From the NCBI GenBank assembly GCA_020048405.1, contig JAIFMP010000081.1, forward strand, positions 1 to 41,264: DNA of 41,264 nt, in the 5' to 3' direction. The translations under genes and the position numbers were made by a program. The notes beneath the pieces were generated by a model. That model saw nothing but the letters and a program-made list of their open reading frames with translations. It had not been told where the DNA came from and did no database searches. The stretch is from Hydrogenophaga sp. (GTDB taxonomy: Bacteria > Pseudomonadota > Gammaproteobacteria > Burkholderiales > Burkholderiaceae_C). Positions within the stretch are counted from its first letter, which is position 1. Every line of letters begins with the position of its first letter. Positions 21,388 through 29,608 of the stretch are shown piece after piece.

Positions 21388-22433
21388 GGCTGCCCCCCGT
21401 CATTCGAAGCATCTGCCTTGCGAGGGTCCAGCGCATCGCGCAGCGCATCACCCATGAAGGTGAGCAGCAGCAGCGTGATCACCAGCACGGCAAAGGTGGA
21501 CAGGGAAATCCACCACGCATCGATGTTGTTTTTGCCCTGCGACAGCAACTCGCCCAGGCTCGGAGTGCCCGGTGGCACGCCCAGACCCAGAAAGTCCAGG
21601 CTGGTCAGCGCCAGGATGGCCGCGCTCATGCGAAACGGCAAAAACGTCACCACCGGTGTGAGGCTGTTGGGCAGGATGTGCCGGGTGATGATCTGCCAGT
21701 GGCCCAGCCCCATGGCGCGGGCGGCGCGCACGTAGTCCATCTGGCGGTTGCGCAGAAACTCGGCGCGCACGTAGTCGCTCAGGCCCATCCAGCCGAACAA
21801 ACTCAGCAGCACCAGCAGCAGCGCCAGGCTGGGCTGGAACAGGGCCGAAAAGATGATGAGCAAATACAGCTCGGGCATGGAGCCCCAGATTTCGATGAAG
21901 CGTTGAAACGCCAAATCGGTCTTGCCACCGAAGTAACCTTGAATGGCCCCGCTCAGCACCCCCAAAGCCACGCCGCACACGGTCAGAGCCAGCGCAAACA
22001 GCACACTCACGCGAAAGCCGTAAATCAGCTGCGCCAGCAGGTCGCGCCCCCGGTCGTCGGTGCCCAGCCAGTTGTCGGTGGTGGGCGCAGAAGGATTGGG
22101 CGCTTTGGCAAAGTAGTTCAGCGTTTTGGGGCCGTAGCGGTTGGGCGCGTACAGCACCCAATTGCCGGGCTCCGCCAGCTTTTGCTGGATGAACGGGTCC
22201 AAATAATCGGTGGGTGTGGGAAAGTCGCCGCCAAAGGTTGTTTCAGGGTAGTCGTGCAACATGGGTGCATACCACTGTCCCTGGTAGCGCACCACCAGCG
22301 GGCGGTCGTTGCTGACCAGCTCAGCCACCAGGCTCAAGCCCACGAGCACGCAAAAAGCGAGCAGGCTCCAAAAGCCTAAGCGGTTGCGTTTGAAACGCTG
22401 CCAGGCGCGGCGTGACGGTGACAAAGACTGCAT
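21384..22433 (-). CDS. yejE: Peptide ABC transporter permease (YejE-type)
   Basis: SPSRRAWQRFKRNRLGFWSLLAF...GTDDRGRDLLAQLIYGFRVSVLF...DYVRAARAMG...ITRHILPNSLTPV...SLDFLGLGVPPGTPSLGELLSQGKNN. Confidence 0.92.
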   Translation of the reverse strand: MQSLSPSRRAWQRFKRNRLGFWSLLAFCVLVGLSLVAELVSNDRPLVVRYQGQWYAPMLHDYPETTFGGDFPTPTDYLDPFIQQKLAEPGNWVLYAPNRYGPKTLNYFAKAPNPSAPTTDNWLGTDDRGRDLLAQLIYGFRVSVLFALALTVCGVALGVLSGAIQGYFGGKTDLAFQRFIEIWGSMPELYLLIIFSALFQPSLALLLVLLSLFGWMGLSDYVRAEFLRNRQMDYVRAARAMGLGHWQIITRHILPNSLTPVVTFLPFRMSAAILALTSLDFLGLGVPPGTPSLGELLSQGKNNIDAWWISLSTFAVLVITLLLLTFMGDALRDALDPRKADASNDGGQP

Positions 22434-23773
22434 CACTTCGACCACTCGTTTGACAAGGATTCCGCCTGTTTAAGCACCAGCTCGACGGCATCGGCCTGCT
22501 GGTCAGGCGGATATTTCCATTTCTGCAAACAGCGCCGCACCAAAATCCTCAGCCGTGCCCGGACACTTTCGCGCACCTGCCAATCCACCGTGGTGCTGGC
22601 CCGAAGCTTTTCTGTGATATCAACGGCAATCTTCTTCAAGGTGTCATCACCCAACTCGCGTACGGCGCTCTCGTTGTTGGCCAATGCGTCGTAGAAGGCG
22701 ATTTCGTCGTGCCCCAAACCCAGCGCAGCTTCACGCTCCAAAACGGCCTGGAATTCCTTGGCCATCTGGATCAGCTCTTCGATCACCTGCGCTGTCTCGA
22801 TGGCGCGGTTGTGGTACTTACGCAGTGTCTCCAGCAAGCGGTCGCCGTATTTCTTCTCCTGGACCACGTTGTTGCGCGTATGCGCCCTGATCTCGTCGCG
22901 CAGCAGCTTCTCCAGCAGCTCCACAGCCAGATTCTTCGTCTTCATCTGGCGCACGTCTTCGAGGAACTCGTCCGACAGCAAACCGATGTTGGGCTTGTCC
23001 AGCCCAGCGAGCGCAAAGATGTCTGCGACACCGTCGGCCACGATGGCGTTGTCCAGAATTTGTTTGAGCGCGCTGTTCTTGTCTTCCGTGGTGCGCTTCT
23101 TGTCTACCGTGGTGAACTTGTTGATGGCGGCCTTGATCGCGGCGAAAAAAGCAATTTCTTTGCGTAGGGCGGCAGCTTCGTCCAGCGTGCCACAGAGCGA
23201 GAACGCCTTGCTTACCGCAGTCATCACATCCAGAAACCGCGTCTTTCCGTCCTTCAGGCCCAGAAGGTGGTTGGCTGCGGGCACCAGCAGCGGCACCGCA
23301 TTGGCCTCGAAGGCGCTGTAGTCAAAGCCATGCATCAGTCCGCGCACGATATCCATCTTTTCCAACAGGACCGCCAGAGCCTCGGTAGCGTTGCGCGTTG
23401 GGTCGCCCTTGCCTTTGGACTCGGTGTAGGTTTTCAGCGCAGCCTTCAGCTCGCTGGCAATGCCGATGTAGTCCACCACCAGCCCGCCGGGTTTGTTCTT
23501 GAACACGCGGTTCACCCGCGCAATCGCCTGCATCAGGTTGTGGCCCTTCATGGGCTTGTCCACGTACAGCCGAATCGGCCTCGCCAGGTCATTTACCTCG
23601 TCATTTACCCCACCAGGTTCGGGAGAAAGTTCCTGCCAGCCATCAAAGCCCAACAAAGCCAGCGCAGTCGGCACCCGCAGGCCGCCCGGGTTGCGAAAAC
23701 TGAAACCCGCCGGTTCCTTGACCACCAGCGCCGACAAGTGCCCGGTGAAGTCCGCGTGAACCAGCGTGCTCAT
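22433..23773 (-). pseudogene. hsdR: Truncated/chimeric type I restriction endonuclease subunit R (C-terminal part only)
   Basis: LYVDKPMKGHNLMQAIARVNRVFKNKPGGLVVDYIGIASELK (motif VI region) plus the C-terminal helical domain; nuclease and Walker/DEAD motifs absent. Replaced by about 68 aa of unrelated sequence (MSTLVHADFTGHLSALVV...). Confidence 0.85.
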
Positions 23774-24450
23774 GGCTGCTTCAACGCCCTGATCTGTACC
23801 AGCCAAGCGGCAAAGAACGCACATTCGGCCTCGATCTTGGCAAGCCCAATTTTCTTGGCAGCGATGGAGCCATGCATACGCTTTCGGTAGCTGGGGTTCT
23901 TCAGTTCACGCTCTAGGTGCGCTGCAGGCTTGGTTTCAGGTCGGTCGTTGATATGTTCCGGCGATTCCGCCGCCGCGCGTGCAGCGGCCAATGCCGCAGT
24001 TGCCCCGTGCCACCCGAGCTGTGTTTGGGTCAATGTCTGTACATCGCTGAACAAAAGCGCCTCAAACTCGTATGGCTGGATGTAAGGGATGAACCGGCCA
24101 GGCTGGCAACCAGCCTCGGCCACAACGTCAGCATGAAGCGCCTGCTTCAACACATCCAATCGCTTTGGCAACTCGGCTTGAGTCAGTGAAGCCTCAAAGC
24201 CGGGGAACCCGCCGTCGAGGCGATACAGGTCGAACAAGGTCGTGACCACCGGCGCGCTGTACTGCCGCAAGGTGTTACGCAAGTGGCGTTTGACGCGGTC
24301 GTACTTCAAGGCGCCGCCTTTGTGGCCGGGGGATGTCTCCACCATCTCGGGGATGAGGTTCAAGCCCAAGTCATAGAACGCTGGTGCCAACACATCTCGA
24401 ACGAAGGTTTCCTCAGTCTGCCCCTCACAGACGATACACACGCGCTTCAT
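23770..24450 (-). CDS. DUF4276-like (TOPRIM-like) protein, partner of the adjacent AAA ATPase
   Basis: MKRVCIVCEGQTEETFVRDVLAP...TTLFDLYRL...FIPYIQPYEFEALLFSD; ATGA overlaps at both gene junctions. Confidence 0.8.
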   Translation of the reverse strand: MKRVCIVCEGQTEETFVRDVLAPAFYDLGLNLIPEMVETSPGHKGGALKYDRVKRHLRNTLRQYSAPVVTTLFDLYRLDGGFPGFEASLTQAELPKRLDVLKQALHADVVAEAGCQPGRFIPYIQPYEFEALLFSDVQTLTQTQLGWHGATAALAAARAAAESPEHINDRPETKPAAHLERELKNPSYRKRMHGSIAAKKIGLAKIEAECAFFAAWLVQIRALKQP

Positions 24451-25544
24451 CGGGTCGGCCTCCCGCCCAGCACATTGCGCTTCCACAGGTCGCCGAGGTT
24501 GTAGTCCTCAAGCCAGTCCTTTAGCTCCTCCGGATCCAGCCGCTTGAGCACCGTGGCACCGCTTTCACGTTCCACGACCACCACGTCCTGCGGTTCAAAA
24601 GCGTTGAGCAACTCAACTGACTGGGTGGAGACGATCACCTGTTTGGTTTCAGCCACCTGCTTGAGCATGTCCGCCAGCAGGTTGATGGCGTACGGGTGCA
24701 GACCCAGCTCAGGTTCGTCGATCAACACCGTGTCGGGCAGCAGGTGCATGGGTTGCATCAGCAACGTGGTCAGGCAAATAAAACGCAAGGTGCCGTCCGA
24801 CAGCACGTGTGCCTTGTACGGCGTGTCCGGATCGGTCTGCTCAAACCACTCCAGTTCAATGTTCTCTGGCAAAGGATCGCGGATGACAAAGCCACCGAAG
24901 AAAGGCGCCGCCAGCTTGATCGTGTCAACGATGCGCTGATAGGCGTCAGGGTAGGTCTTGTTGAGACTGGCCAGATACGCCGCCAGGTTGTCCGCTGCCG
25001 GTTTCAGTCGCAGGTTGTCGTTGCTGCCATGCGGGCGCTTTACGGCGGCTGAATCGCCTGTGTCGTGAAAATGGTACTGACGCCAGCTTTGCATGGCTGG
25101 TCGCACGTACTTGCTCACAGCCTGCTGGTCGTCTCGCAGCTTGGCTTCATCGTGTGCAGTGCCCAGAGAGATCGCTTTGGCCGTGAAGTGCCCGTCAATC
25201 CAGGTTTGCTCGCGGCTGAAGATCAGCCGGTTGTCTGCCGTCGGCGTCAGGCTGATTCGGTAGCCATTGCTGATGCCTTGATACCCAGGTTCAAAGTAGA
25301 TCTCGACATCCATCTGCTGGGTGCGCTTGCGGCTGCCGTGCAGCAGCGCATCCGGCCCGCCCTGCTTCTGCACAAAAGTCTGCAAGTTGCCATCAGCCAG
25401 CGCCGCCAACAGTTTGAAGATGCCGATGAAGTTGCTTTTGCCCGCGCCATTGGCACCAATCAGCACATTGAGCTTGCGCAGCTCGAAATTTTCAAGCTTG
25501 GCGACGGACTTGTAGCCTCTCAGGGTGACGGTTTTGAGTTTCAT
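24447..25544 (-). CDS. AAA-family ATPase (AAA_21/RloA/OLD-like ABC-ATPase fold)
   Basis: LRGYKSVAKLENFELRKLNVLIGANGAGKSNFIGIFKLL (Walker A), LSDGTLRFICLTTLL, VLIDEPELGLHPYAINLLADML (Walker B), VIVSTQSVELL. Confidence 0.9.
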   Translation of the reverse strand: MKLKTVTLRGYKSVAKLENFELRKLNVLIGANGAGKSNFIGIFKLLAALADGNLQTFVQKQGGPDALLHGSRKRTQQMDVEIYFEPGYQGISNGYRISLTPTADNRLIFSREQTWIDGHFTAKAISLGTAHDEAKLRDDQQAVSKYVRPAMQSWRQYHFHDTGDSAAVKRPHGSNDNLRLKPAADNLAAYLASLNKTYPDAYQRIVDTIKLAAPFFGGFVIRDPLPENIELEWFEQTDPDTPYKAHVLSDGTLRFICLTTLLMQPMHLLPDTVLIDEPELGLHPYAINLLADMLKQVAETKQVIVSTQSVELLNAFEPQDVVVVERESGATVLKRLDPEELKDWLEDYNLGDLWKRNVLGGRPTR

Positions 25545-25623: not shown

Positions 25624-27282
25624 TCACACTGCGACATCCATCTCTGCGCTCTGAACCTTGAGTTCCCCTGACAGAAGCCTCGGCAGCAGTGCGTCGCGAA
25701 ACTTTGCAAGGGTTTCTGTCGAGTCAGCCAAGTGCGGCAGTCTTAACAAGATCGGTTTGAGCAACTCGTCATACGCATCCAGAACGGCCTTGGGCGGGAC
25801 GACCAGAGGCAAAGCCTTGACGCTGCCTGTTGGGCGTGCAATGGCGGGCACGCCAACCTGGCTGGTGTTGGACAGCAGCTGCCGTTTCCCAGTGTCCGAA
25901 CGAAGAAACTCGAAGAGGTACCGGGCGCTCATGCGAGCGCGATCGACCGAGAGCAGCATTTGGCTTTGCGAGACGACGTAACGCGGGAACTTGCTGCGTT
26001 GAGGTATCAGACCAACTTGTCCCAGGGTTCCGCGATGGGTGATGACTATGTCGCCCGGAAATGCGTTGGCGCTCTTGAGCTCATCGGCCTTGGTTTCGGT
26101 GAGGAATACATAGTTGCGCTCCATCAAGCCGTCGGTGAGGTTTCCGCCTCGGATAACGGGTACACCCTCCTCAACAAAGTTGTCCTTCTTGATGTCTGAA
26201 CCGAAAGGACCCATCGCTACACGGGCGGTGACATCCCCAATACGACTGGCGAGCCAACCAGAAGGGATCGCTCCCAGTTCTGAATCCTTCATATCATCCG
26301 GAAACAGCGCGGCGGTGGCGGCTAGGGTGGCGAACTGTTCGGATGGCAGGGTGTCGAGTTCGGCGTCGGGTTTGCCGCTGATGGCGGTCATCGCGGCGCG
26401 CAGCGGGTCGCGGCCTGCTGCCTTGGCGGCGATCTTGGCTTTGACGGGGTCGAAATTGACAAACCACGATGTGAAGATGGCTTGCGCCATGGCTTCGAGG
26501 GTTTGGTTGATGCGGCAGTTGACGGTGATCTTGTCGTCAAGCACGCTGAGCATTTGAGCAATTCGTCGCTGCGTGCCAAGGCCTGGCACTCGAACTCTTG
26601 CCAAGTGCAGATGGTTCCTGTTGACACCCGGTACAGCCCCCTTGTCCGAATAGGCATGGAAATCCAGGGTCTTCAGGAAGTAACTAATGAACCGCGGATC
26701 GTTGCCCTTGAAGTCACGAACATAGAGCGTCGTGTTCAATGGCCAATAGTCCTCTTCAACGTAAAAGACCTCGCCGATGGTTCCGTATCGACCTGTCACG
26801 ACGCCAGGGCCTTTGACCATGGCCTCGAAGTGAAAGTCACTCACTCCAGAAGACGAGACGATTGGCACGTGCCCTTGAGTTCGCTTGTCTTTAGGTAGGT
26901 CATAGCCGCGCTTTAACTCGAGCACCTCTCCGAGAGAGGCTTCTGTCCACTCGCTACTAGAAGCCACAACCCCGCCCCGCCCCACCTTTTGCACCACTAC
27001 CCTATCCCGCTCAATGATCTTCCTGAACGACTCACTGGTCGTCGCCCAATCCACCACATCCACTTTGTAGGGCAAGTCTGATTCATCAAACGCTTCCTCC
27101 AGCAGCCCTAAGGTGCGAAAGCTCAGCGGCGTTTCGCCGACGATGCACAAGTCAAGATCGGAATACTCCTTGGCAAGCCATTTGGCGCGGGAACCAAAGG
27201 CCCAGACTTCACGATTGGGGACAAGCTTCGCCAAAGTTTCCTGAACCATTTTCAGGTGGTCGGCGCGAATATCAAGCAACAT
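25624..27282 (-). CDS. hsdS: MNT nucleotidyltransferase domain fused to type I R-M specificity subunit HsdS
   Basis: N-term about 100 aa VWAFGSRAKWLAKEYSDLDLCIVG (MNT GSxA-SDLDL motif); from about 26967 HsdS: EWTEASLGEVLELKRGYDLPKDKRTQG...GTQRRIAQMLSVLDDKI...GWLASRIGDV...LAKFRDALLPRLLSGEL. Confidence 0.9.
   Translation of the reverse strand: MLLDIRADHLKMVQETLAKLVPNREVWAFGSRAKWLAKEYSDLDLCIVGETPLSFRTLGLLEEAFDESDLPYKVDVVDWATTSESFRKIIERDRVVVQKVGRGGVVASSSEWTEASLGEVLELKRGYDLPKDKRTQGHVPIVSSSGVSDFHFEAMVKGPGVVTGRYGTIGEVFYVEEDYWPLNTTLYVRDFKGNDPRFISYFLKTLDFHAYSDKGAVPGVNRNHLHLARVRVPGLGTQRRIAQMLSVLDDKITVNCRINQTLEAMAQAIFTSWFVNFDPVKAKIAAKAAGRDPLRAAMTAISGKPDAELDTLPSEQFATLAATAALFPDDMKDSELGAIPSGWLASRIGDVTARVAMGPFGSDIKKDNFVEEGVPVIRGGNLTDGLMERNYVFLTETKADELKSANAFPGDIVITHRGTLGQVGLIPQRSKFPRYVVSQSQMLLSVDRARMSARYLFEFLRSDTGKRQLLSNTSQVGVPAIARPTGSVKALPLVVPPKAVLDAYDELLKPILLRLPHLADSTETLAKFRDALLPRLLSGELKVQSAEMDVAV
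26970..26986. repeat. Pentameric CCCCG/GGGGC tandem repeat at the MNT-HsdS joint
   Basis: CCCCG CCCCG CCCCA CC on the plus strand. Confidence 0.8.
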
Positions 27283-27682
27283 GGGCAGGCAGCCTTTGCA
27301 GCAAATCGCGCGCATTGCTTACAAAGTCGCCAATTTGGGCAAATACCCCTTGAGCGATTTCGGAGTCGTAGCTGTGTGAGGTGCGATCACGTGCAGCCAA
27401 AAAACCAAACCAGCTTTCAGCATCGGCCAGCATGCCCAGTTTGGCAGCTTCGCGTATCCAACCCTTTTTGGCGCTGGCTTCGTCCATGTCGTATTTTTCT
27501 TTGAGCACACGAATGACCAGTTGCCGACTTAAATCCATGGCCACTTCAAAACGTTGAATCGCTCCATCACGCACACTCAACGTCAATCGAGATTGGTGCT
27601 CTGTGGCGTAGCGGTAATCGTCAAGCGCATCTTCAACGGCCTTGACCGCCAGATGCAAAGCTTCAAGGCTGATTTCAGACAT
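27272..27682 (-). CDS. HEPN-domain protein (HI0074-like nucleotidyltransferase substrate-binding family)
   Basis: All-helical; ALHLAVKAVEDALDDY...FEVAMDLSRQLVIRVL...WFGFLAARDRTSHSYDSEIAQ (R-x4-H HEPN motif); overlaps the MNT start. Confidence 0.85.
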   Translation of the reverse strand: MSEISLEALHLAVKAVEDALDDYRYATEHQSRLTLSVRDGAIQRFEVAMDLSRQLVIRVLKEKYDMDEASAKKGWIREAAKLGMLADAESWFGFLAARDRTSHSYDSEIAQGVFAQIGDFVSNARDLLQRLPAHVA

Positions 27683-27881
27683 GATTTGCGCCTTCCAATT
27701 TCAGATAAACAACGTACTCACCTTGGTCGTCAAGTGCCAATAGATTGCCTTGTTGCAAGGCAATCAGATGCTGCGGTTTCAGCGTGATCAACTGACTCGC
27801 CCAGCGTTTACCAAAAGGTTTTTCAGATGCTTCGGTGTCGAAGATGTCATCGACGATGGCAATGTATTCGTCGCTATTCAT
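27675..27881 (-). CDS. 68-aa conserved-looking small protein of unknown function between hsdM and HEPN
   Basis: MNSDEYIAIVDDIFDTEASEKPFGKRWASQLITLKPQHLIALQQGNLLALDDQGEYVVYLKLEGANHV; overlaps both neighbours by 4-8 nt. Confidence 0.7.
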   Translation of the reverse strand: MNSDEYIAIVDDIFDTEASEKPFGKRWASQLITLKPQHLIALQQGNLLALDDQGEYVVYLKLEGANHV

Positions 27882-29608
27882 AATTTGTAGCCCAAACCAG
27901 CCAGGTTATTTTTGATTTCACCCTCCAGCTTGGCACTCTCTGCAAACTGCGCAACCAGTTGCTTTGTAAGCCGCGCCATCTTGTCGGCGAAGGCTTCGGC
28001 GTCTTCCTCCTGGTGTTCGGCTCCCACGTAGCGCCCCGGGGTCAACACGTATTCGTGCTTGCGGACGTCGTCCAGCTTTGCTGAGTAGCAAAAGCCTTTG
28101 ACATCCGCATACCCCTCGCCCTGCTGCCAGGCGTGGAAGGTGTTAGCGATTTTTTGAATGTCGTCTTCGGTGAAATCACGCAGCACACGGTCTTTCATGT
28201 GGCCCATCTGGCGGGCGTCGATGAAGAGGAACTGCTTACGGCGGTCGCGCTTTTTCTTGCTGAGGTTGAAGCCGTTGGCCTTGTCGCGGGTCAGGAACCA
28301 GATGCAGGCAGGTATTTGCGTGTTGGTGAAGAGCTGGCCGGGCAGCGCAACCATGCATTCCACGCAGTCGCGCTCCACCAGTTGCTTGCGAATCTCGCCT
28401 TCGTTGTTGGTGTTGCTGCTCATGGAGCCGTTGGCCAGCAACAAGGCCATGCTGCCGGTGGGTGCCAGGTGGTGGAGCATGTGCTGCAGCCAGGCGAAGT
28501 TAGCATTGCCCTGGGGAGGGGTACAGCCGGGCAACCAGCGCGGATCGTTCTCCAGCTTGGCGTTCCACCATTCCTTCATATTGAAGGGTGGGTTGGCCAT
28601 GACGTAGTCGGCCCGCAGGTCGGGGTGCAGGTCATTCAGCAGGGTGTCGGCGTGGCCACCGCCAAAGTTGAAGTCGATGCCGCGGATGGCCATGTTCATG
28701 GCCGCGAGCTTCCAGGTGGTGGGGTTGCTCTCTTGGCCGTAGACGCTGATCTGGCAGCTGGCTTTGTTGCCGGTGCCCGTTGCGTACTTCGCCGACTTAC
28801 CTGCGTGCTGTTCAATGAACTCTTCGCTCTGCACAAAGAAGCCGCCAGAGCCCATGCAGGGGTCGTACACGCGACCTTTGAAGGGCTGGAGCATGTTGAC
28901 AATGAGGCTGACGATGGCTTTGGGCGTGTAGTACTGGCCACCCTTCTTGCCTTCGGCCAAGGCGAACTGGCCGAGAAAGTATTCGTAAATGTGGCCCAAG
29001 ATGTCCTTGGCCTTGAGGCTGAGCGGCTGGCCCTTGTATTCGGAGGCGTGAAAGTTGGTGTCAGAGAACAAGGCCATGAGCTCGGCCAGCTTGTACGACT
29101 CGATTTCGGTGTTCGCGAAATTCTTGTTGAGCACGTTCTTGAGCTTTTTCTCGTTCTCGCGCTCAATGGCTTCCATGGCGTTGTCGATGAGCCAGCCGAC
29201 GGTGCGCATCTTTTCGGGCTCGTTTTTGCCGGCCTGGTTCCAGGGCAAACCAGTGCCGGGTGGCAACTGGGCACACGCGACCAGCATGGGCCAGCGCGCT
29301 TCGCTGGGCACCCAGAAGACGTTCTTCTCGGTGTAGTAGTCACGCACCTCCAGCTCGGCGGCAAGGTCGACCTTATAGGTGCCGGGGTACTCGGCCGGGT
29401 TCATGTAGTAATCGTGCGCCGGATCGGTGAACTGGGCCTTGAGTTCGTTCTGGCGCTCTTCAAACGCGTCAGACACGTACTTGATGAACAGCAGGCCGAG
29501 CACGATGTGCTTGTAGACGGCGGCGTCCAGGCTGGGCAGCAGCTTGTTGGCGGCGGTCCAGAGCTTCTTTTCGAGGTCGTCAAAAAACTGTTGTTCGGTG
29601 GTGTTCAT
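27878..29608 (-). CDS. hsdM: Type I restriction-modification DNA methyltransferase subunit M
   Basis: LLFIKYVSDAFEER, GGQYYTPKAIVSLIVNMLQPFKGRVYDPCMGSGGFFVQ, YVMANPPFN (NPPF); full length. Confidence 0.97.
   Translation of the reverse strand: MNTTEQQFFDDLEKKLWTAANKLLPSLDAAVYKHIVLGLLFIKYVSDAFEERQNELKAQFTDPAHDYYMNPAEYPGTYKVDLAAELEVRDYYTEKNVFWVPSEARWPMLVACAQLPPGTGLPWNQAGKNEPEKMRTVGWLIDNAMEAIERENEKKLKNVLNKNFANTEIESYKLAELMALFSDTNFHASEYKGQPLSLKAKDILGHIYEYFLGQFALAEGKKGGQYYTPKAIVSLIVNMLQPFKGRVYDPCMGSGGFFVQSEEFIEQHAGKSAKYATGTGNKASCQISVYGQESNPTTWKLAAMNMAIRGIDFNFGGGHADTLLNDLHPDLRADYVMANPPFNMKEWWNAKLENDPRWLPGCTPPQGNANFAWLQHMLHHLAPTGSMALLLANGSMSSNTNNEGEIRKQLVERDCVECMVALPGQLFTNTQIPACIWFLTRDKANGFNLSKKKRDRRKQFLFIDARQMGHMKDRVLRDFTEDDIQKIANTFHAWQQGEGYADVKGFCYSAKLDDVRKHEYVLTPGRYVGAEHQEEDAEAFADKMARLTKQLVAQFAESAKLEGEIKNNLAGLGYKL

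Follow-up and report, generated by a model that had tools for sequence, protein, structure and literature searches.

A HEC-01-type ATPase–DUF4276 gene pair between hsdS and an hsdR remnant in a type I restriction–modification operon of Hydrogenophaga sp.

Results

Gene content of the locus

The window analysed here is the whole 41,264-nucleotide stretch of a Hydrogenophaga sp. contig, and the genes described below lie on its minus strand in a type I restriction–modification (R-M) operon. These are the methyltransferase gene hsdM (27878..29608), a gene for a HEPN-like nucleotidyltransferase partner of the HI0074/HepT type with the motif R-x4-H-x-Y (RDRTSHSY; 27272..27682), hsdS fused to an N-terminal MNT nucleotidyltransferase domain (25624..27282), an ATPase gene (24447..25544; 365 aa), a DUF4276 gene (23770..24450; 226 aa, with its ATG at 24450 and its stop at 23770) and a 446-aa ORF holding an hsdR remnant (22433..23773). 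The ATPase was recognised as an OLD/SMC-like ABC ATPase by its motifs, Pfam, PADLOC and predicted fold, and the DUF4276 protein was predicted to be RloB/OLD-TOPRIM-like by Pfam, PADLOC and profile comparison. The two genes share an ATGA stop/start overlap of four nucleotides (24447..24450), which is also present in 27/51 relatives, and a second ATGA joins the DUF4276 stop to the start of the hsdR-remnant ORF (23770..23773). Both ORFs are real, and an earlier note on this DNA had their coordinates, motifs and ATGA overlap right. It had also set the pair between hsdS and an hsdR remnant; the placement stands, with the corrections that HsdS is an MNT-HsdS fusion and that HsdR sequence makes up only residues 69-446 of the remnant ORF.

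The MNT domain on the N-terminus of HsdS and the adjoining HEPN-like gene (together 25624-27682) form a type VII-like toxin–antitoxin system in which the specificity subunit of the R-M system carries the antitoxin part. The same fusion was seen in four other loci (L036, L037, L039 and L041).

Selection on the pair and state of hsdR

The pair is intact and under selection: in pairwise comparisons of the window with its nearest relatives, the ATPase gave dN/dS values of 0.024–0.049 and DUF4276 gave values of 0.063–0.071. The C-terminal part of HsdR gave likewise low values (0.055–0.093), and the damage to hsdR is therefore recent or a product of the assembly. Residues 69-446 of the remnant represent the C-terminal third of HsdR, are 88-91% identical to relatives and are without the nuclease and most of the motor. 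Residues 1-68 matched neither any HsdR nor the loci of the relatives, and in their own genome they matched only themselves. The truncation is either a biological deletion or an assembly artefact. The deletion-scar check reported no direct repeat at the hsdR junction. A short repeat, GGTAAATGAC, is visible near 23,590–23,612 by eye only.

The state of hsdR bears on whether the position of the pair could be incidental or partly an assembly product, in which the draft assembly would have fused a neighbour from a defence island to a rearranged hsdR. Apart from fragments on contig C148, the 181-contig assembly indeed lacks the N-terminal 600+ residues of HsdR, and a second hsdR on C148 is likewise gapped in that region. 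However, the order ATPase-DUF4276-hsdR recurs with full-length hsdR in independent genomes (L001-L003, in L001 and L003 preceded by hsdM and hsdS), which makes such an origin very improbable. Because of this recurrence the placement is genuine, whether or not the hsdR junction is.

The ATPase

The ATPase carries the Walker A motif GANGAGKS, the signature LSDGT and the Walker B motif LIDEPELGLHP, and matched Pfam AAA_21 (9e-30). The core Walker A residues, the SDG of the signature and DEPELG are invariant among 55 ATPase sequences. The AlphaFold model (pLDDT 91.9) matched the SMC head, Rad50, retron PtuA, Septu PtuA and OLD in Foldseek with E values from about 1e-14 to 1e-12, and a profile search of the PDB sequences retrieved OLD, PtuA, GajA, AriA and retron ATPases, so the protein falls in the SMC/Rad50/OLD/PtuA/AriA group. 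Its C-terminal tail, N357-x-x-G360-G361-R362-P363, is conserved in 54–55 of 55 sequences and lies within the sole segment of the monomer model with pLDDT below 50. A tail that is conserved yet disordered in the model suggests a docking peptide.

Fold and active site of the DUF4276 protein

The second protein matched Pfam DUF4276 (1e-43) and contains the motifs E9-G-x-T-E13 (EGQTEE), D74-x-Y76 (FDLY) and E128-F-E130. Its structural model (pLDDT 93.5) has the order β1-α1-β2-α2-β3-α3-β4, and E9 follows β1 (strand 2-8) and D74 follows β3. The TOPRIM topology has the same order of elements, with a Glu after strand 1 and a DxD motif after strand 3. E9 is invariant in the relatives (52/52), as the TOPRIM Glu would be. 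D74 is likewise kept in 52/52, and the second position of the DxD motif is Tyr76 in 51/52, which departs from the TOPRIM pattern. E13, E128, E130, E165 and K190 are invariant in the same 52 sequences.

In hhalign comparisons, DUF4276 matched RloB at 95.1% (E 3e-8), mainly in the first 50–60 residues, the E-values being those of single comparisons. This bears out the resemblance to the RloA/RloB-type pairs of hsd loci that had been suggested before. The direct match of DUF4276 to the OLD TOPRIM was weak (20.7%, E 1e-3) and that to DUF4435 was 3.3% (E 0.013), and RloB itself matched the OLD TOPRIM at 75–85% and DUF4435 at 86%. Twenty-nine unrelated neighbour families, used as controls, reached at most 0.8% against DUF4276 and 2.1% against RloB. 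Foldseek searches with the DUF4276 model returned nothing at E <= 0.001 in either the PDB (best E 0.03, with query TM below 0.3 among the top hits) or BFVD, where the first match was an RloB-like protein (E 0.037, probability 0.80). No solved-structure relatives of DUF4276 or RloB were found by sequence.

Because of the profile comparison with RloB, DUF4276 is best read as a divergent RloB-like TOPRIM, which would join the OLD/DUF4435 TOPRIM group through RloB. Of the TOPRIM-like character that had been assigned to it by eye, the profile link and the order of the elements hold, and the second Asp of DxD does not. Since that Asp is a near-invariant Tyr and the Foldseek searches gave no significant match, the nuclease chemistry of DUF4276 is presumptive, and with the Tyr in 51/52 sequences metal-dependent cleavage is not assured.

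Assignment to HEC-01 and comparison with related systems

The ATPase matched the PADLOC HEC-01A model PDLC04175 over residues 2-363 of 365 (E 1.4e-142), and the DUF4276 protein matched the HEC-01B model PDLC04188 over residues 1-224 of 226 (E 3.6e-70). By both protein models the pair thus belongs to the PADLOC candidate system HEC-01. Other PADLOC systems were far weaker for the ATPase (AriA 5e-28, MAD3 4e-27), and the AriA match spanned the same part of the protein as the AAA_21 match. The pair is therefore not unclassified, and at the level of classification it is an already named subtype, an outcome that the earlier note had foreseen as one that would count against its proposal. HEC stands for Hma-embedded candidate, and HEC-04 has been reported to act against T4 and T5 (PMC12111858); several HECs have been reported to be antiviral (PMC12988326). 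In the literature searched, the coverage of which was incomplete, we found no mechanism of or dedicated paper for HEC-01, and nothing relevant on DUF4276.

Both HEC-01 components match in the right order, and relatives of the pair occur in Hma-like SNF2/methyltransferase operons. The window pair differs in that its host operon is a type I R-M and not an Hma operon, the pair being embedded between MNT-HsdS and hsdR. As the membership rests on two protein models, it is unaffected by the non-Hma host.

PARIS (AriA/AriB) resembles the pair in having split ATPase and TOPRIM genes, and AriA is among the PDB matches of the ATPase, but the PARIS effector is DUF4435/AriB whereas that of the window is DUF4276. 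No AriB/DUF4435 match was found in Pfam or PADLOC, and with the low DUF4435 profile score given above, membership in PARIS was rejected and the earlier comparison was not borne out to that extent. The RloA/RloB and AbiLi/AbiLii pairs likewise combine an OLD-like ATPase with an RloB-type TOPRIM protein in type I R-M operons (PMC10440598), and in profile comparison DUF4276 comes closest to RloB. However, RloB (PF13707) was not among the Pfam matches of the DUF4276 protein, the second Asp of DxD is replaced by Tyr in the latter, and by inspection the NxxGGRP tail of the ATPase is unlike the tail of an RloA-like ORF in another locus (L102). Judged by these profiles, the DUF4276 protein is related to RloB and is not a member of the RloB family. 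An RloB match with an in-frame TGA was seen in the same genome (L102, G000:C173; L084), just downstream of the RloA-like ATPase ORF.

With MADS the window shares a MAD3-related ATPase and a specificity-type protein in the locus, but the match to MAD3 reached 106 bits against a cut-off of 420 bits, and this assignment was rejected. In L099, the gene neighbouring a MAD3 match gave no profile match to DUF4276. The OLD proteins of classes 1-3 (P2 Old, GajA and retron-Eco8) have the same ATPase superfamily and the same ATPase/TOPRIM logic; they are single polypeptides, whereas the window has two ORFs overlapping by ATGA and a TOPRIM-like part of the RloB type.

Distribution of the pair and its genomic surroundings

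An ATPase match was found beside every DUF4276 match, in 59/59 related loci. Thirteen of the 59 loci carry type I R-M genes, with the pair between hsdS and hsdR wherever both are visible; this share is a lower bound, given the shortness of some contigs and a search confined to relatives of the window R-M. In three more loci the neighbours of the pair are SNF2 helicase/SLFN/N6-N4 methylase or Eco57I-type methylase/DEAD helicase genes. On plasmids it was found between methylase and Mrr protein genes (Ideonella), between SNF2 helicase and methylase genes (Aeromonas), and alone beside vapBC and tet(39) on an 11-kb mobilizable Acinetobacter plasmid (L107, NZ_CP114258.1). In the remaining loci the neighbours are mostly housekeeping genes. 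The hsdS-hsdR slot of some relatives holds further cargo, namely a SIR2_2 protein (L001, 7882-8904; L002 and L007 have similar genes), another AAA_21 ATPase accompanied by a 180-aa ORF (L007, 10678-12227) and a RhuM-Fic protein (L032, 11166-12152).

The recurrence beside type I R-M could mean that the pair guards restriction, the ATPase sensing anti-restriction proteins (Ocr, Ard) or loss of R-M and then firing DUF4276. Such a role would fit the 13/59 loci, the R-M label changing at least five times on the ATPase tree with all five changes forced by well-supported branches, and the presence of the pair in other methylase operons as well; PARIS works in that manner (PMC12409363), and for OLD-ABC modules a role as a second layer that backs up BREX has been proposed (PMC12839542). 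We nevertheless regard it as unlikely, since in most relatives no R-M lies within about 10 kb (though some flanks are short), the Simplicispira pair (L004) persists beside a mere hsdR vestige, and hsdR is broken in the window too. The hsdS–hsdR junction is moreover a general cargo site: it houses embedded defence genes such as DarTG2, and an AAA-like ATPase gene pair in four genomes (PMC12255303), and TgvAB is encoded within a type I cluster (PMC11411939). Since defence genes are known to be embedded at this junction, position alone is no argument for anti-restriction sensing.

Portability of the pair

In Methylomonas-like genomes the bare pair lies between obgE and proB. Among 32 proB loci examined, mostly from one family, two have the pair there, two were not judgeable, and in 28 obgE abuts or slightly overlaps proB; one of these 28 empty sites belongs to a genome (that of L023) that carries the pair elsewhere. 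The bare pair set against 28 empty sites indicates that the ATPase and DUF4276 genes alone are the unit gained or lost, a behaviour that holds for that family and is not a general rate. Together with the 13 type I loci and the three helicase/methylase operons, this insertion marks the pair as a portable module, complete in itself, which has entered R-M operons again and again and does not depend on one. The tie to R-M is looser than had been drawn before, most relatives being standalone.

The standalone copies in methanotroph housekeeping operons, some at shared syntenic sites, together with an SMC/Rad50-like ATPase and the precedent of the archaeal OLD protein Cran1 (PMC12796447), would also suit a pair that serves housekeeping or genome maintenance and not defence. 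The spread of the pair is, however, patchy (18/301 sampled family genomes) and extends to plasmids, the obgE-proB site is empty in most relatives, the pair resides repeatedly in R-M/Hma operons, and frameshifted or broken copies occur, and we consider such a role improbable. The broken or frameshifted copies concern the ATPase and/or DUF4276 in L049, L050, L055, L057 and L058, including Methylotuvimicrobium buryatense 5G.

Discussion

The ATPase–DUF4276 pair of Hydrogenophaga sp. is a genuine module, intact and conserved, of a candidate system that had been named before, and it sits in a cargo slot of a known kind. Our analysis indicates that it is probably a HEC-01-type two-gene module, pairing an OLD/SMC-like ABC ATPase with DUF4276 as a divergent TOPRIM effector of the RloB type. 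The module occupies the hsdS-hsdR slot of a type I R-M operon, moves independently of R-M, and would hold its effector through the ATPase until infection frees it. Most likely the pair acts as a two-component toxin–antitoxin-like abortive system, with the OLD-type ABC ATPase as sensor and antitoxin and the TOPRIM-like protein as effector.

These roles are assigned by analogy with PARIS and with the AAA/RloB-homologue pair. In PARIS, AriA sequesters the AriB tRNase, which is inactive until a phage protein triggers its release (PMC12409363). In E. coli an AAA protein neutralises an RloB-homologue toxin, and the RloB domain, which occurs in type I R-M operons, is related to OLD_TOPRIM (PMC10440598). 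On this model the ATPase would oligomerise, form a complex with the DUF4276 protein and inhibit it, possibly through the conserved but disordered NxxGGRP tail. An infection cue sensed by the ATPase would serve as the trigger by which DUF4276 is released or activated, and the freed effector may then cut its nucleic acid target, so that the infected cell is stopped. The two genes suffice as a unit, and their movement is independent of the host R-M operon. Counting against this reading of the module, many pairs lie in housekeeping surroundings and not in defence islands, and the pair had no match in 50,697 phage records.

A further-reaching reading would make DUF4276 a distinct class of TOPRIM-derived effector with altered chemistry (D-x-Y in place of DxD; invariant E13, E128, E130 and K190), gated by the NxxGGRP tail of its partner ATPase, a short, invariant and disordered segment, and the pair a bare two-gene element that enters tight operon junctions (hsdS-hsdR, obgE-proB) without a transposase of its own. 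We offer this only tentatively, and taken as a whole it is rather doubtful.

HEC-01 as a candidate system and the hsdS-hsdR cargo slot as a kind were already known. As far as the literature searched goes, which was incomplete, the profile link between DUF4276 and RloB with its altered DxD site, the invariant tail of the ATPase and the clean insertion of just these two genes at obgE–proB are new. DUF4276, a widespread uncharacterised family, is now linked to the RloB/OLD TOPRIM effectors, with named residues. As a complete unit, the two genes move without depending on the R-M operon that they often inhabit, and this bears on the question of whether modules embedded in R-M operons are guardians of restriction or passengers of a cargo slot.
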